Below, piece by piece: positions 10,869 through 60,883 of a stretch of 64,000 bases of DNA. This DNA comes from Actinopolyspora lacussalsi. Its GTDB lineage: Bacteria > Actinomycetota > Actinomycetes > Mycobacteriales > Pseudonocardiaceae. The stretch lies in the NCBI GenBank assembly GCA_030803735.1, contig JAURUC010000001.1, positions 2,869,501-2,933,500 on the forward strand, given 5' to 3'. Under the pieces are notes generated by a model. That model did not search any database, was not told the DNA's origin, and saw nothing but the letters and a program-made list of their open reading frames with translations. A program made the position numbers and the translations under genes. The first letter of the stretch is position 1; every line of letters starts with the position of its first letter.

Positions 10869-13800
10869 CTACTCCGGCTGGATGTAGGCGGTCTGGATCA
10901 ACTGCGGACCACCCTTGAGACTCCGGCTGACCAGAGTTCCCCTGCCCGGCGGCAACTGCCGCGACTTGATGTTGCCGATGAGCTGGCCGTCGTCCTTGTT
11001 GGCGCTCATGGCCAACCCCGGCGCCGAGGACTCGCGCATCTTGCCGATGATCGGCTCGAACAACGCCCTGCTGGCACCACCGGAGTTGCGCGCCAGCACC
11101 ACGTGCAGGCCGACGTCGCTGGCCTGCGGGACGAACTCGGCGAGCTGCTGCATCGGGTTGTTGCCCTGCGGGGCCACCAGGTCGTAGTCGTCGGCCACCA
11201 CGAACAGCTCCGGACCGGACCACCAGGAGCGGTTCTTGAGCTGTTCCTGGGTGACGTCCGGCCCCGGCAACCGCTTCTTCAGCGCGTTGCAGACGTCGTT
11301 GATGTTGCCCTTGAGCTGGTCGGCGGAGACGGCGTACTCCATCAGGTGCCCCGTGTCCAGGAAACCGAGCATGGTTCGCCGGTAGTCCACCAGCAGGATC
11401 AGCGCTTCCTTGGGGCTGTAGCGGTTGGTGATACCGCGCACGATGGTGCGCAGCAGTGCCGTCTTGCCCGCTTCCCGTTCGGCGAAGGCGTAGAAGTGCG
11501 GCTCCGCGTCGAAGTCCAGGTAGACCGGGTGCAGCCCGTCCTCGTTGATGCCGATCGGCACCAACCGCTGTTTGGGCTGCTGTTCGGGTGTCGGCAGCTG
11601 TTCGTGCGGGAGCACGTCGGGCAGCAACCGCACCTTCGGTGCCGGCCTGCCCTGCCAGGAATTGCGCACCTTGGTGACCAGGTCCGCGACACCGTCGGAG
11701 AGGTCCTGGTTGTACGCCTCCCAGCCGACCCGGTCACCGAGGTTTTCGCTGTCGACCCTGGGAATGGCGGTGAGGAAGTGCAGTTTGCTCGGGTGCAGTC
11801 CGCGCCCCGGCCTTCCGGAGGGGACGTTGACCGCCACCTTTCGATCCACTTCGGACTCGCTGGGGTCCCCCAGCCTGAGTTCGAAGCGGGTACCGATCAG
11901 GTCCTTGAGCGCGGGGCGGATCTCGGCCCAGCGGTTGGCCGAGACGAACACGTGCACCCCGAAGGTCAACCCCTGCGCGGCCAGGTCGAGCACGTCCTGC
12001 TCCAACGTCTCGAAGTCGTTGCGGAACGCGCCCCAACCGTCGATGACCAGGAACACGTCACCGTAGGGGTCGTCGGTTATGCTGCCCGCCGCCTTGCGCT
12101 TGCGGAAGTCGGCCATCGAGTCCACGCCGAGTTGCTGGAACCGCGCCTCACGCTCGGCGACCAGCTGCTTGATCTCGGCGATGGTCCTGCGCACCACGTC
12201 CTGGTCACGACGACCGCCGAAACCACCGATGTGCGGCAGGCTCTGCAGCGCGGCCATCGAACCGCCGCCCAGGTCGACGCAGTAGAACTGTACTTCCCGC
12301 GGGGTGTGGGTCAGCGCCATCGAGCAGATCAGGGTCCGCATCAGGTTGGACTTGCCCGACTGCGGCCCGCCGACCACGGCACCGTGCCCGTTGGCGCCGC
12401 CGAGGTCGACCACCATGTGGTCCTGGCGCTGCTGGTAGGGCATGTCGATGATGCCGACCGGAACCTGCAGCTTCCCGTTTCCGGCGTTGCCGACCGGGGT
12501 GTACCCCCGCTCCTCGGTCGCCGAGAGCGGCGGCAGCACCGAGTCCAGTGTGGGCGGAGCGTCCAGCGGGGGAAGCCAGACCTGGTGCGCGGGTGGACCC
12601 TGCCCCTGCACCTTGTTGATCACGAGCTGGAAGTCGCTGTCCGGCAGACCGTCGCCGTCGTTGTCGACGATGCCCGACTGGTCCGACTCGGGCTCCGGTT
12701 CCGGCTGCGCGGGCTGATCCGGCTCCGCGGGCGGCTCGATGTAGTCCGGCACGAAGAACCGGGGGCGCTTCTCGCCCGTGACCGGCGAAGCAGCGACCGT
12801 ACGGCGCTTGCCCCCGCCCTGGTGCATGTGACCGGAGACGTAGGCCGCGCGGAACCGCTCCATGCCGCCCGGATGCTTCAGGTAACCGTGACCACCGGTG
12901 GCGGGCAGGTCACCGGCGTCGGGAACGCCGATCGCGGCACGCGACTCGGCCTGGTTGAAGGTCTTGAGCCCGATCCGGTAGGACAGGTGCGAGTCCAGCC
13001 CCCGCAGCTTGCCCTCCTCCAGGCGCTGCGAGGCCAGCAGCAGGTGCACCTGCAGCGAACGTCCCAGCCGTCCGATCATGTTGAACAGCTCGGCGAACTC
13101 GGGCTTGGTGGACAGCAGCTCGGAGAACTCGTCGATGACCACGAACAGGGCGGGCATCGGCGCCAGGTCCGCCCCGGCCTGGCGGGCCTCCTCGTAGTCC
13201 CAGACGTTCTTGACCTTCGCCTTGTTCAGTTCCTCCTGGCGCCTGTTGAGCTCACCGGCCAGCGCGTCCTGCATCCTGTCGACCTGGGTGAGGTCGTCGG
13301 CGAGGTTGGTGATGGTCGCCGAGACGTGCGGAGCAGCCTCGAACCCGTTGAACGTCGCACCACCCTTGAAGTCGACCAGCACGAAGTTCAAGGCGGTCGA
13401 GGAGTGCGTGGCCATCAGGCCGAGCACGATGGTGCGCAGGAACTCCGACTTACCGGAACCGGTGGCGCCGATGCACAGCCCGTGCGGGCCCATACCGCCG
13501 GACGCGGTCTCCTTGATGTCCAGCGAAACGACCTGACCGTCCTCACCCGGTCCGATGGCGACCTTGTAGCGCTCCGGTATGGGACGGGGCCGCCACGCCT
13601 CGTTGAGGTCGAACGAGATCGGGTCGCCGCTGAGCCCGAGCTGTTCGATGTAGTTGAGCGGGGTGGTGAGCGGCTCCTGACCGCTGCTCTCGGTCTCGGC
13701 CTGACCGGTTCGGGCCGACATCATGCGGTAGGGGGAGAGCTGCCGCGCCAGCGCGGTGGCCTCCTCCTTGGTCATGGCGTCCGGCACACCGAACCACTCG

Positions 13801-16706: not shown

Positions 16707-18155
16707 ATGCGTTCAACCACAACTGTGCACCGTGGCAACCTCCGGCGTGCGCTGGCGATCTCGGCCGCGACCGCCACTCTCCTGGTGTGCGGACCGGTAC
16801 AACCGGCCACCGCCCAGGACGAGGACGAGACCGGAACCGAGAGCGAGCAGGAGCTGCGGCTGCCCCCGGTCCCGGAGGACACGAATGTGACGGTGTCCTC
16901 AGGCAGACTCTCACCGGACGACGGCTTCAGCCGGCAGCAGGCATGCCTGGCCGCGAACGAGAGCGGATCACGGATCAGAAGGCAGCCCTGGAGCCAACGG
17001 GTGCTCGGTTTCGGCCGTGCCCACGAGCAGGGACTCACCGGGGCGGGACAAACGGTCGCCGTGGTCGACACCGGCGTGAACGAACACCCCAGGATCGGGC
17101 AACGACTCCGAGCCGGCGGTTCCAAGATAACCGGCGGTGCGCTGCAGGACTGCGACGGGCACGGCACGGTGGTGGCGGGCATCATCGCCGCGAGCGACTC
17201 GGAGGAGACGGGCTTCGTCGGCGTCGCGCCGGAGAGCGACATCCTGTCCATCCGGCAGTCGTCCTCGATCTACCAGAAGGAACAGTCCGGCGAGACCGTC
17301 GGCAACACGTCGACCATGGCCCAAGCCGTCGCCAGTGCCGTGGCACAGGGCTCCGACGTGATCAACATCTCGCAGGCCTCCTGTCAGACGCTCTCCCGCG
17401 CCCTGTCGCCCAACAAGCCGAACTGGGAACTGCGCGCGGCCGTCAGACAAGCCTACGAACAGGACGTCGTAGTGGTCGCCGCGGCGGGCAACGTCGGCGG
17501 CAAGTGCGAGAAGAACGAGCCCGGCGATCCGAGCACCGCTGTGCTGCCCGCCTGGTTCGACGATTACGTGCTGACCGTGGCTTCGGTGAACCGGCAGGGC
17601 GCACCGTCCGAGTTCACCATTCCCGGACCGTGGGTGGACGTCGCCGCACCCGGCGAGGACCTGATCTCACTCGACCCGGGGATCGATGGCGACGGGCTGG
17701 TGAACCGCGTAGCCCGCGACTCCAACAGCCAACCGCAGCCGTTGCAGGGCACGAGTTTCGCCGCTCCCTACGTTTCGGGGCTGGCCGCGCTGATCAAGGA
17801 GAAGAACCCGGAACTCTCCGCGGCCCAGGTGATGCACCGGATCACCGAAACCGCGCAGCACCACGGTGGCAGCGAGGGCGGTAACGACATCATCGGCTAC
17901 GGGATGATCAACCCGATGGCCGCGCTCAACAACGTCATCCCCGCCGAGCACGACGCGGCTGCTGCCCCGGTCGAGCCCCGACGCCTGGAAGCGCACGTGT
18001 TCCCGGAGCGGAACTGGGCCGCCATCGCGGTGGCGATGGGAGGAACCATCGGCGGTCTGGCCACAGTGCTGTTCACGGCGTTCCTGCTCAACGCGGTAAG
18101 GCGGGTTCGGGCACGGAACCGGGGCGAATCACCGGTGGGGTCGGAAACCTCCTGA
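16707..18155 (+). CDS. mycP: Type VII secretion mycosin protease MycP
   Basis: This membrane-anchored subtilisin-like protease is part of the T7SS core complex. Residues 1-36 are a signal peptide. The catalytic triad is visible: D121 in VAVVDTGVN, H152 in DGHGTVVAG and S350 in QGTSFAAPYVSG, with the oxyanion Asn at 262 (AAAGN). A C-terminal transmembrane helix (about 435-460) and basic tail follow. The ATG at 16707 is chosen because AAGGAA lies 5 nt upstream; a GTG three nt earlier is the alternative. It converges on eccB. Confidence 0.95.
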   Translation: MRSTTTVHRGNLRRALAISAATATLLVCGPVQPATAQDEDETGTESEQELRLPPVPEDTNVTVSSGRLSPDDGFSRQQACLAANESGSRIRRQPWSQRVLGFGRAHEQGLTGAGQTVAVVDTGVNEHPRIGQRLRAGGSKITGGALQDCDGHGTVVAGIIAASDSEETGFVGVAPESDILSIRQSSSIYQKEQSGETVGNTSTMAQAVASAVAQGSDVINISQASCQTLSRALSPNKPNWELRAAVRQAYEQDVVVVAAAGNVGGKCEKNEPGDPSTAVLPAWFDDYVLTVASVNRQGAPSEFTIPGPWVDVAAPGEDLISLDPGIDGDGLVNRVARDSNSQPQPLQGTSFAAPYVSGLAALIKEKNPELSAAQVMHRITETAQHHGGSEGGNDIIGYGMINPMAALNNVIPAEHDAAAAPVEPRRLEAHVFPERNWAAIAVAMGGTIGGLATVLFTAFLLNAVRRVRARNRGESPVGSETS

Positions 18156-18166
18156 TCGAGGTTTTC

Positions 18167-18206
18167 CGGGCGGTTCGGCGGATCACTCGCTCGGCGGAAC
18201 CGCCCG
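18167..18206. terminator. First hairpin between convergent mycP and eccB
   Basis: The arms CGGGCGGTTC and GAACCGCCCG are perfect inverted repeats around a 20-nt loop, just past the mycP stop. Confidence 0.6.
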
Positions 18207-18227
18207 ACGAGGGTTACGAACGAACTC

Positions 18228-18258
18228 GCGGCCCGGAACCGGCTCGGTTCCGGGCCGC
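18228..18258. terminator. Second hairpin between convergent mycP and eccB
   Basis: A perfect 13-bp inverted repeat (GCGGCCCGGAACC / GGTTCCGGGCCGC) with a 5-nt loop. It is strong enough to terminate transcription from both sides. Confidence 0.8.
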
Positions 18259-18306
18259 GTTACTACCCGACGGGAGGACCACCCGTGGCGGTGGCCGCCC
18301 GTGGAG

Positions 18307-29360: not shown

Positions 29361-29385
29361 GTCGATTTCCCGCGAAATCGCCGCG
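29361..29385. repeat. Copy of the GATTTCNCGCGAAATC palindromic repeat
   Basis: GTCGATTTCCCGCGAAATCG followed by CCGCG matches the copy at 23157 except for one T-to-C change. It adjoins the long-hairpin element that starts at 29433. Confidence 0.7.
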
Positions 29386-29432
29386 CCCCTTCGACGCAGG
29401 GCGAACTCCGACCATGACCGCAGTCGGCGCCG

Positions 29433-29540
29433 CCGCGGGTTCTCCGGTGCGGCTCCCGCGAGGACGGCCCCGACGTTGTATAGTACCTACCCGATGTCGG
29501 GGCACCCGCAGCGAGAGCCGTGCCAGAGGTTCCGCCACGG
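29433..29540. repeat. Long-hairpin repeat family, copy A
   Basis: A ~108-nt imperfect inverted repeat with outer arms around CCGGTGCGGCTCCCGC / GCGAGAGCCGTGCCAG and inner arms CCCCGACGT / ATGTCGGGG flanking a TATAGTACCTAC centre. It lies between the convergent methyltransferase and map genes. Copies B (56487) and C (56744) share the layout with compensatory changes. Confidence 0.8.
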
Positions 29541-29572
29541 AACCACCCACCAAAACCGGGGGCACGGTCGCC

Positions 29573-30361
29573 TCACTCAGCGGCGGTGAGCACCCAGGGA
29601 CCGTCGGGGGTGATGGCCACGGTGTGCTCCCAGTGAGCGGCCCGGGATCCGTCGGACGTCACCACGGTCCACTCGTCGGAGAGCTCCTCGCTTTCCGGCG
29701 GGCCGAGCGTCAGCATCGGCTCGACGGCCAGTGCCATTCCCTCCCGGAGCTTGGGCCCCTTGCCCGGCTTGCCCAGGTTGGGAAGGAAGGGCTCCATGTG
29801 CATGCGGGTCCCGATGCCGTGCCCGCCGTACTCGGCGATGATCCCGTAGTCGATTCCGTCCGAGGCGGCGGCCGACTTGGCCGCGGACTCCACCGCGTGC
29901 GAGATGTCGGTCAGCCTGTTCCCGGCGGCGACCTTGTCGATACCCGACCACATCGCCCGCTCGGTGGCCGCCGACAACGCCAGTTCACGTTCCCCAACCG
30001 AACCGACCGGGATGGTCACGGCGGAGTCACCGTGCCACCCGTCCAGAATCGCTCCGCAGTCGACCGAGATCAGGTCGCCGTCGGCGAGCACCTCCGTCGT
30101 CGAGGGGATGCCGTGCACGATCTTCTCGTTGATCGAGGCGCAGATCGACCCCGGGAAACCGTGGTAGCCCTTGAAGGAGGGAATCGCGCCCGCGTCACGG
30201 ATGACGCCCTCGGCGACCGAGTCGAGTTCGGCGGTGCTGACCCCCGGTTTCGCCTGCTCGGTCACCGCCGCGAGGGCGCGCGCGACGACGAGCCCCGCCG
30301 CGCGCATCGCCTGAATCTCACCACTGCTCTTGAGCTCGATGCCCTTACCCCGACGCAGCAC
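29573..30361 (-). CDS. map: Type I methionine aminopeptidase
   Basis: This enzyme removes the initiator Met from nascent proteins. It has 262 residues. Metal ligands are visible: Asp in ISVDCGAILDGWHGDS (two Asp), His in YGGHGIGTRMHMEP, Glu in LAVEPMLT and Glu in WEHTVAI. The GTG at 30361 (VLRRGKGIELKS) has AGGGG upstream. The frame is open to 30505 without a conserved extension. It is downstream of secY-adk, as usual, but separated from adk by 289 nt. Confidence 0.95.
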   Translation of the reverse strand: MLRRGKGIELKSSGEIQAMRAAGLVVARALAAVTEQAKPGVSTAELDSVAEGVIRDAGAIPSFKGYHGFPGSICASINEKIVHGIPSTTEVLADGDLISVDCGAILDGWHGDSAVTIPVGSVGERELALSAATERAMWSGIDKVAAGNRLTDISHAVESAAKSAAASDGIDYGIIAEYGGHGIGTRMHMEPFLPNLGKPGKGPKLREGMALAVEPMLTLGPPESEELSDEWTVVTSDGSRAAHWEHTVAITPDGPWVLTAAE

Positions 30362-30650
30362 CGCTGCCCCTCTCGTCAACTCAACGGCCTTACAAGAACG
30401 CTTCTCGCCCCGGTACGAATCCCGGGCCACTTCCCCACCGCGGCCCGGCGACCGCGGGAGCCGGGCGGTCCGGGAGCGTCGGAGACCTCCCCGGCTCCGC
30501 CACACCTCACCGACCCCCGCGGTCCGAGTACCGTCGCGCCGAACACCGCCGTTCGCGGAACGAGTTCACGCGAGGTCCGGCCACGAAATCATCTCCCCGG
30601 GACCGGCGGCCCGGCTACGGGCAACGGATCGAACCGGGGAGCGAAACCAC
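30362..30650. other. Gap between adk and map
   Basis: 289 nt on the adk-map path with no convincing gene. It may hold a promoter for map. No strong hairpin or sigma-70 pair was picked out. Confidence 0.4.
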
Positions 30651-48702: not shown

Positions 48703-48759
48703 CCCGCTGTTATCCAGTGTCCCCGCTGTTATCCAGTGTCCCCGCTGTTATCCAGCGTC
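48703..48759. repeat. Three tandem 19-bp repeats
   Basis: CCCGCTGTTATCCAGTGTC is repeated three times head to tail (48703, 48722, 48741); the third has one T-to-C change. It lies between rpsL and the ADP-ribosylglycohydrolase-like gene, directly before the diverged long-hairpin copy. Confidence 0.9.
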
Positions 48760-48846
48760 GCGCTCCCGAGAGGAAGACCCGACGTCGCGCGGGTCGCAGC
48801 CCGATGTCGGCTACCCGCTGCGAGAGCCGGCGGGAGATCCGGCCGA
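48760..48846. repeat. Long-hairpin repeat family, diverged copy D
   Basis: It shares, in order, GAGGAAGACCCGACGT, CCCGATGTCGG, CCCGCTGCGAGAGCCG and GGAGATCCGGCC with copies A-C. The GTAGTnACTAC centre is lost. It lies past the stop of the 1566-aa gene. Confidence 0.5.
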
Positions 48847-48881
48847 GCGAGTGGCACTACAACCCGGCCGGAAAACCTCGA

Positions 48882-55826: not shown

Positions 55827-55972
55827 ACCGGAAGTTCGAGGGCACGACGACGGAGCCGGGGCGTTGGTCATCAGGGCCGCTTCCCGCTGTGACTACGGCA
55901 GCACCGCACGAAGCAGTATCGAACAGGCGTTCTATCCTGACCTTTTTCGCTGGTGTGACCGAGAGAGGAAAC

Positions 55973-56440
55973 GTGAACGAACAACAAGACGTGACCACCG
56001 AGCAGCCCACCACCGAGCAGAACGTCACCGCCCAGGGCGTCACTGAGCAGGGTGATACGGAGCGGGGTGATACGGAGCGGGGAACCGAGAACGCCGAGGC
56101 GAGCAACGGCAATGCGGAGCAGGGCACCCAGAAAAAGGCCAAGGGGCGCAAGCAGACCGGTGCGCGCAAGACACGTCAGGTGGAACTGACGCTGACGGTC
56201 AGTGGAACCGCCGAAGGCGAGTGGCAGGCCGATCTGACGCACGCGGGCAAGAAGATCGTGCAGGGACTCCCGATCGCCGCCTCCGCCGTTTCCAAGGCGG
56301 CCGGTGAACTGCACGACGACATCTCGGAAGCGATCGAGTCGGTGCTTTCCGAGGCCCGCCAGCAGCACGAGGCCAGGCTGGCCGAGCTGGAGGCGGAACT
56401 GCAGCGGGTGCGCAAGACGCTGGAGGACCTGGAGAGCTGA
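55973..56440 (+). CDS. Small protein with polar N-terminus and C-terminal coiled coil, possibly DUF6319
   Basis: This 155-residue protein begins with a Gln/Thr/Glu-rich region with repeats (TEQ; GDTERGDTERG), followed by a basic patch (KKAKGRKQTGARKTRQ, about 53-70). A beta-like segment VELTLTVSGTAEGEWQADLT comes next, then a helical coiled coil from ~115 to the end (ARQQHEARLAELEAELQRVR). The GTG at 55973 has GAGAGAGGAAAC upstream. The basic patch suggests nucleic-acid or membrane-surface contact. A DUF6319-type assignment is tentative. Confidence 0.7.
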   Translation: MNEQQDVTTEQPTTEQNVTAQGVTEQGDTERGDTERGTENAEASNGNAEQGTQKKAKGRKQTGARKTRQVELTLTVSGTAEGEWQADLTHAGKKIVQGLPIAASAVSKAAGELHDDISEAIESVLSEARQQHEARLAELEAELQRVRKTLEDLES

Positions 56441-56486
56441 CCTCCGGTTCGAGCGTCTCCGGCTCGGTTGCGGAGGGGCTCGCCTG

Positions 56487-56597
56487 GCGGAATCTCCGGT
56501 GCGGCTCTCGCTCCGGGGAGGCCCGACATCGGGTAGTCACTACACAACGTCGGGCCTTCCTCGCGAGAGCCGCACCGGGGAAACCCCGGCGGTGCGG
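56487..56597. repeat. Long-hairpin repeat family, copy B (inverted orientation)
   Basis: Perfect 16-bp outer arms CCGGTGCGGCTCTCGC / GCGAGAGCCGCACCGG (56496-56511, 56563-56578). The inner arms GGCCCGAC / GTCGGGCC flank a GTAGTCACTAC centre. The reverse complement aligns with copies A and C along its length. It lies after the coiled-coil gene. Confidence 0.85.
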
Positions 56598-56625
56598 GCC
56601 GCGTAGCCGTGGTGTTTCTGACGGC

Positions 56626-56645
56626 GTCGATTTCTCGCGAAGTCA
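56626..56645. repeat. Partial copy of the GATTTCTCGCGAAATC palindromic repeat
   Basis: GTCGATTTCTCGCGAAGTCA matches the family over its first 16 bases; the right half has one change. It lies between long-hairpin copies B and C. Confidence 0.6.
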
Positions 56646-56743
56646 CCGGTCCTCGGCGCAGTGCCGAACACCGAACACCCACACAGGTCGGACTCCGACC
56701 ACTCTCGCAGGCCGAGCTCCTACCACTCCTCCAACTCGCACCG

Positions 56744-56850
56744 CCGCGGGTTCTCACGGGTCGTCTCGCGAGGACAGCCTCGACGTGGCGTAGTAACTAC
56801 TCGATGTCGAGGATCCCGCAGCGAGACGGCCCGTGAGGTTCCGCCACCGG
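56744..56850. repeat. Long-hairpin repeat family, copy C
   Basis: Layout as in copy A: CCGCGGGTTCTC start, GCGAGGACAGCC, inner arms CCTCGACGT / ATGTCGAGG around GTAGTAACTAC, then CCGCAGCGAGACGG and GAGGTTCCGCCACCGG. The inner arm change C-G to T-A is compensated on the other side. Confidence 0.85.
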
Positions 56851-56885
56851 CACCGGCACAACCGCCGAAGCTTCACAACAAAAAA

Positions 56886-56916
56886 GCTCCCTGCTCGGAG
56901 GAGACGAGCAGGGAGC
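56886..56916 (-). terminator. Rho-independent terminator after rpoC
   Basis: A perfect 11-bp inverted repeat (GCTCCCTGCTC / GAGCAGGGAGC) with a 9-nt loop, followed on the minus strand by TTTTTTGTTGTG. It ends the rpoB-rpoC transcript. Confidence 0.92.

Positions 56917-56971: not shown

Positions 56972-60883
<3,912 letters not shown>

Follow-up and report, generated by a model that had tools for sequence, protein, structure and literature searches.

A long-hairpin family anchored at stop codons in Actinopolyspora and related genera, probably of miniature transposable element type

The window, a 64,000-nucleotide stretch of an Actinopolyspora genome, holds long hairpins between its genes that resemble one another and whose two arms differ from copy to copy in a paired fashion. 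What kind of element are these hairpins, and what keeps them folded? The original prediction described three intergenic copies of about 108 nt (A, B, and C) and a diverged fourth (D), took their paired differences as evidence of selection on structure, and left the choice between an RNA element, a bidirectional terminator, and a miniature mobile or REP-like element.

Copies of the hairpin in the window and in related genomes

A covariance model of the family, which we call F1 (model R1, 40 copies), placed copies A, B, and C where they had been claimed. Copy A occupies 29427-29544 on the forward strand (cmsearch, 127.3 bits), copy B lies inverted at 56478-56595 on the reverse strand (118 bits), and copy C is at 56738-56853 on the forward strand (118.8 bits). 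The diverged fourth copy is also real, though decayed (48736-48852, forward strand; 47.3 bits, E 3e-7). A fifth copy, E, more decayed still, probably lies at 18185-18294 on the reverse strand (23.6 bits, E 0.035); it keeps the spacing to a stop codon that is usual for F1, and its counterpart in another genome of the same species (G041, locus L082) scores 23.4 bits.

The distance from the model end to a stop codon is 28 nt for A, 37 nt for B, 29 nt for both D and E, and 118 nt for C. Copy A is followed by a 28-nt tail (29545-29572, forward strand; delimited by sequence and the spacing rule) that runs to the abutting stop codon of a facing Peptidase_M24 gene, methionine aminopeptidase-like (29573-30505, reverse strand; PF00557, 150.4 bits), and a small palindrome, GATTTC-CCGC-GAAATC, was recognized by inspection in its 5' part (29364-29379, forward strand). 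The 37-nt tail of copy B (56441-56477, reverse strand; from sequence, ORF calls, and Pfam) reaches the stop codon of a DUF6319 gene (55955-56440, forward strand; Pfam and ORF calls). Copy C, with its unusual spacing, faces rpoC (56972-60883, reverse strand; Pfam), which is convergent with the gene preceding copies B and C; its 5' part holds the small palindrome GATTTCTCGCGAAGTC (56629-56644, forward strand; by inspection). An inverted-repeat search found a further repeat near the rpoC 3' end (56886-56916) that looks like rpoC's own terminator. Copy D faces an ORF on the reverse strand (end 48882), and copy E a subtilase gene (16725-18155, forward strand; PF00082).

On the model strand the predicted fold energies are -67.4 (A), -85.4 (B), and -74.8 kcal/mol (C), with z scores of -5.5, -9.6, and -7.6 and none of 200 shuffles as good for any of the three; all three also form strong hairpins on the other strand. 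The fold of copy D was equalled by 66 of 200 shuffles (z -0.46). The hairpin thus stands as first described, and the element around it needs redrawing: it also includes a 5' part and a conserved tail of some 30 nt, and most copies, far from being scattered loosely between genes, are anchored to stop codons. As anticipated, it matched no named family in Rfam, neither in a scan of the whole window nor when the element from six loci was searched at E values up to 0.5. Copy C had no match among plasmids, and the titles and abstracts on actinobacterial repeats or MITEs within coverage, which excludes most subscription papers, hold no description of such a family. Separately, Rfam matched 5_ureB_sRNA at 60.6 bits in a Saccharopolyspora soli locus (L131:2577-2866).

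The family is abundant. Two DNA searches of the host genome (G000), which falls in the Actinopolyspora righensis species cluster, gave at least 87 and at least 52 matches with 40 of about 350 candidates scored in each. A covariance-model search of this genome and its relatives had been proposed as the check on the family, and R1 returned at least 130 copies in the 5.03 Mb host (150 of 7742 first-look candidates scored) together with matches in 13 of 41 related genomes: all nine of the genus, 4 of 16 other family members, and none of 16 from the order. A cross-genus model, R2, matched 69 of 249 Pseudonocardiaceae genomes, representing 14 of 46 genera, and the host only among 296 genomes of the class, both with stricter filters under which weak matches are lost. 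A pattern scan found at least 120 stretches, distributed among the matches listed as Actinopolyspora 77, Saccharopolyspora 27, Amycolatopsis 9, Halopolyspora 3, Sciscionella 2, Halosaccharopolyspora 1, and Prauserella 1.

Copies are unevenly spread within and between genomes. One congener (G006, 4.23 Mb) has three matches, against at least 89 in each of seven others. Among the model matches listed, none falls at 0.014-1.30 Mb of the host genome or at 2.04-2.77 Mb of G021; these stretches are probably terminus regions.

Position behind stop codons and paired change in the arms

Gene positions were taken from a simple codon-usage ORF caller made for this analysis rather than a published one, and 126 of the 130 host copies could be classified, the other four lying at locus edges. 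None of the 126 is inside a called ORF. Instead, 107 lie directly behind a stop codon, and in these the 3' side of the hairpin faces the end of an oppositely oriented gene. Measured from the model end, the spacing to this gene's stop codon in the host is nearly constant (median 30 nt, quartiles 28 and 32.5, 95th percentile 189). In a wider multi-genus set that overlaps the host set, 192 of 225 copies are oriented likewise, with medians of 31 and 33 nt. Stop codons beside F1 are TAG in 26 of 94 cases, compared with 34 of 367 genes in a 424-kb segment, an enrichment expected if insertion helps build the stop.

Copies also lean toward the presumed origin of replication: 79 of the 107 stop-anchored host copies and 9 of the 19 others do so, with the strand switch rather than dnaA used to place the origin at 3.5 Mb, as do 34 of 37 among the G020 matches listed (40 in all) and 88 of 113 among the G021 matches listed (125 in all), counted by eye and assuming an origin at coordinate 0 and a terminus half way. 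The presumed leading strand holds 246 of 368 genes in a 424-kb host segment. We rejected replication polarity as a rule for F1, taking it as a by-product of gene orientation in the host; the G020 bias is stronger and not fully explained.

F1 is enriched between convergent genes: 67 of 107 stop-anchored copies are so placed, compared with 94 of 254 gene 3' ends where the gap is 60 nt or longer, a comparison set that includes F1-bearing sites. Such placement, like the strong hairpins on both strands of A to C and the stem with TTTCTCTTT after it that Saccharopolyspora rosea copies have in their 5' part, is what a family of ordinary intrinsic or bidirectional terminators lacking mobility would show. 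We consider that explanation improbable: neither strand of copies A to C has a T run after the long hairpin, the alignment reveals conserved internal and apical motifs that termination does not need, and in S. rosea the copies are near-identical, dispersed, and bounded by terminal repeats.

The paired differences between arms are real. Across 64 copies from many genera, 94.5% of 2604 cells pair (78.8% when shuffled, at most 46.3% with slid partners). Changes on both sides occur in 24 of 42 pairs (shuffled 18.0 ± 1.4; slid at most 18) and in 364 cells (shuffled 107 ± 10; slid at most 101), counts that treat the copies as unrelated. The step from covariation to structural selection held in part. 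Covariation lies far above both controls, but it is no sole proof of selection, since templated correction of imperfect palindromes, through strand switching during replication, also gives paired changes. Correction of this kind in place of selection is a minority reading that we take seriously, given that arms change as whole blocks and that elements are recurrently broken at or near the hairpin tip, breaks that an extruding DNA hairpin, or one that blocks replication, might cause. It would yield Watson-Crick pairs, however, and three G.U pairs are kept nearly constant (13-116 in 61 of 64 copies, 15-114 in 63 of 64, 49-77 in 41 of 48 gap-free copies); nor does it account for the variable arm (columns 20-28), where G.T exceeds A.C by 54 to 5.

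This asymmetry extends to the whole hairpin. In the model orientation 264 cells are G.T and 36 are A.C, and among pairs that are mostly Watson-Crick the counts are 99 and 34; G.T predominates in 15 columns and A.C in seven, the latter a point against a strand-specific fold. When 239 copies were folded with G.U forbidden, a choice made to lessen strand bias, there were 185 G.T and 84 A.C, with G.T ahead in 106 copies and A.C in 41. An excess of G.T over A.C suggests a strand-specific fold, and this excess and the conserved G.U pairs argue for strand-specific selection. The pattern points to a fold formed by RNA or single-stranded DNA of the strand that lies antisense to the adjoining gene.

Terminal repeats and a candidate autonomous partner

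Genome G240, in which a 700-base slice is identical to S. rosea A22, holds five F1 copies that are identical over the model, three of which (L420, L421, and L423) lie between terminal inverted repeats, GWGCCTGTCTTTGAACT, with at most three mismatches. This repeat occurs 293 times in the genome at up to two mismatches, compared with five occurrences of a reversed control. Hairpin-bearing elements of 231-234 bp comprise a small stem-loop, the long hairpin, and the tail; shorter derivatives of 118-148 bp mostly have no hairpin. By hand count, 13 of 19 short pairs of terminal repeats have TNA on both sides and only 10 of 19 have identical TNA, as do the flanks of three of six elements of 231-234 bp, a point against the insertion model.

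A matching insertion sequence resides in the same genome. The F1 ends read GWGCCTGTCTTYGAAC at both sides and those of the IS GTGCCTGTCTTTGATC, so that 14 to 15 of 16 positions are alike. Between two such ends lies a 962-bp IS with a 277-aa transposase carrying PF13340 and PF01609, which scores 199.5 bits against NCBIfam NF033580 (transpos_IS5_3, IS5 family; cut-off 110). The full-length transposase is present at eight places at 100% identity and one at 99%. Relatives occur in G020 (five at 77-78%, two with an internal stop), G021 (full-length, 64-65%), and G003 (one at 56%); the Actinopolyspora host has only broken pieces. Recognizable ends were found at 13 of 16 IS loci tried, and all 13 show an exact TNA duplication. 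F1 itself carries no gene, and an IS5-family element of the NF033580 kind is its likely autonomous partner. Matching IS, TNA flanks, and terminal repeats together support the suggestion of a miniature mobile element in S. rosea.

F1 also serves as a landing site for this IS family. Seven of the 13 delimited IS copies are inserted at F1 hairpins (L470, L488, and L497 in S. rosea; L471, L480, and L489 in G020; L472 in G021); in six cases the insertion point is the TGA within the 3' arm. At L489, F1 is present on the tail side only, and the other side is an IS end.

Outside S. rosea the ends fade. Other Saccharopolyspora and G020 show weak terminal repeats that still exceed the control. In G021, first tests were negative both for the genome's own ends (n = 9) and for the S. 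rosea repeat (n = 17); alignment then yielded a different terminal repeat that none of 200 shuffles matched, a weaker case than S. rosea since it was chosen after both ends had been viewed. Four Amycolatopsis copies gave no terminal repeats. In the host genome, F1's own terminal repeats are at control level (10.55 against 10.76 of 18); in Actinopolyspora copies the S. rosea repeat is likewise at control level, and for repeats derived from the tail between 16 and 100 of 200 shuffles did as well. With their own ends undetectable, the window copies are assigned to the mobile family through hairpin, tail, and spacing to the stop codon, and on this homology they would be relics in which that fold is intact.

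The best explanation, to which we would give a probability of roughly two in three, is that F1 belongs to the MITE type, takes stop codons as insertion sites, and keeps its hairpin, probably as a transcription barrier. The IS5-type transposase of S. rosea, or a relative, would move it. TGA and TAA both fit TNA, and insertion at such a target would regenerate the stop and leave the protein intact. Selection probably maintains the hairpin, which folds on the strand antisense to the adjoining gene. We favor for it the role of a 3'-end barrier that would end or block transcription between facing genes, making insertion harmless or even useful. A symmetric MITE gives no orientation preference, a point against the insertion model, and in S. 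rosea hairpin-less derivatives abut stop codons with either end, so the observed bias needs selection through the hairpin, which is its likeliest cause. In small samples from S. rosea, gene ends lie at the tail side (0 to 51 nt) of all six hairpin-bearing elements, and those around 11 hairpin-less elements lie at the tail side in five cases and at the 5' side in nine.

More tentatively, F1 may be a mobile element that equips genes with structured 3' ends, inserting at the stop codon, restoring or supplying the stop, and leaving behind a strand-specific antisense fold. If so, the fold would have been kept across many genera of a single family, and in Actinopolyspora after the transposition ends had decayed, and sites that still exchange hairpin types between strains would form a domesticated, still-shuffling system of 3'-end cassettes. 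F1 brings together three topics usually treated apart: the choice of TNA targets by an IS5-type transposase, the safety of stop codons as places to insert, perhaps even favored ones, when the genome is GC-rich, and the origin of folded 3' ends. What F1 does to transcription and mRNA ends is open to direct test, since there are at least 130 copies in an almost constant arrangement and the same gene occurs naturally both with the hairpin and without it.

Turnover of sites and relation to known elements

Positions of F1 turn over between genomes. The gene beside a sampled copy also bears F1 in the host genome at 11 of 14 A. righensis loci, at 36 of 50 loci of A. alba, A. mzabensis, A. xinjiangensis, and G003, at 5 of 17 loci of A. 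biskrensis, G002, and G005, at the single locus of G006, and at 3 of 58 loci of other genera. Over 424 kb of the host compared with G041 and A. alba (G007), strong sites are mostly shared. Orthologous hairpins average 91.1% identity with G041 (17 sites; flanks 93-99%) and 89.4% with A. alba (11 sites; flanks 91-99%). Three of the 17 and two of the 11 fall below the average similarity of paralogs, and four of the 17 in G041 are at or below 84%. Among sites aligned between these three genomes there was no clean empty site with a target duplication; those where F1 is absent are truncated copies, deletions, or replacements. The hairpin at site A persists in seven Actinopolyspora genomes, in one of them only weakly.

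Conservation of this last kind would also be expected if F1 were mainly a functional RNA or regulatory element of gene 3' ends and the terminal repeats of Saccharopolyspora a later capture. The hairpin and tail are common to many genera while the ends differ (S. rosea compared with G021, none detectable in Actinopolyspora), and the G.U pairs are strand-specific. Yet the turnover of host genes, the three of 17 orthologous copies less alike than an average paralog, and a congener with only three matches sit poorly with a fixed regulatory element, and we regard this reading as rather unlikely next to a MITE-type origin. For the related S. erythraea, RNA-seq work describes 190 putative intergenic ncRNAs (PMC3610266).

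Bacterial MITEs are described as elements of 70-300 bp with terminal repeats of 15-30 bp, often beside genes, with ERIC, NEMIS, RUP, YPAL, and Nezha as examples (PMC3733652). F1 shares their size range, its non-coding and gene-adjacent nature, and a strong hairpin, and in S. rosea its ends match a resident IS; it is by this S. rosea form that F1 fits the MITE kind. Unlike MITEs, it stands at a near-fixed distance and in a single orientation at stop codons, its hairpin has undergone deep paired change and is kept in Actinopolyspora with no detectable terminal repeats, and copies or whole families replace one another at one site.

REP and BIME sequences resemble F1 in being palindromic and of high copy number, with some directly behind stop codons (PMC12306157, PMC3733652); REPs within 15 nt of a stop codon have been linked to translation control (PMC12306157), and REP ends are reported to provide TAG stops (PMC3733652). 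These likenesses notwithstanding, we rejected the REP-like membership that had been among the suggestions, and consider movement of F1 by a RAYT tyrosine transposase very improbable. The REP-transposase check gave four Y1_Tnp matches in the host, two with OrfB_IS605 (TnpB) neighbors (L039 and L040) and two partial (L041 and L042), hence IS605-type elements or fragments and no RAYT standing without TnpB. The hairpin is about 100 nt rather than a palindrome of 20-40 bp, and whereas a REP carries its GTAG or CGTC tag at one end, GTAG lies at the apex in many F1 copies. Terminal repeats and TNA flanks point instead to a DDE transposase, and F1 further differs from REPs in its strict orientation. 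L039 and L040 are themselves IS605-type elements of the host genome with both TnpA and TnpB.

Integron attC sites offer another comparison. In these sites a hairpin follows the stop codon and folds on the opposite strand from the gene, its structure conserved despite sequence variation. F1 shares all of these traits, and differs from attC in occurring as dispersed single copies at conserved core genes and in its TNA flanks and terminal repeats.

At some orthologous sites F1 is replaced between strains by a second hairpin family with a similar tail, F2. It is about 115 nt long, with at least 27 near-full-length copies of 92-99% identity in the host (40 of 106 candidates scored), at G000:C1:3121453-3121571 and 26 other places (L373-L399). 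Several F2 copies are followed by F1 halves (L381, L383, L384, L395, and L399). F1 is recurrently broken at or near its apex, in these flanks as in a hybrid in G004 (L075, about 12204-12321) and a half element in G041; the breaks look as if an extruded DNA hairpin had been cut or skipped. Finally, the small palindrome GATTTCTCGCGAAATC, found in the window at 29364-29379 and 56629-56644 and at many other loci, is frequent beside Actinopolyspora F1 and F2 copies and is sometimes repeated.
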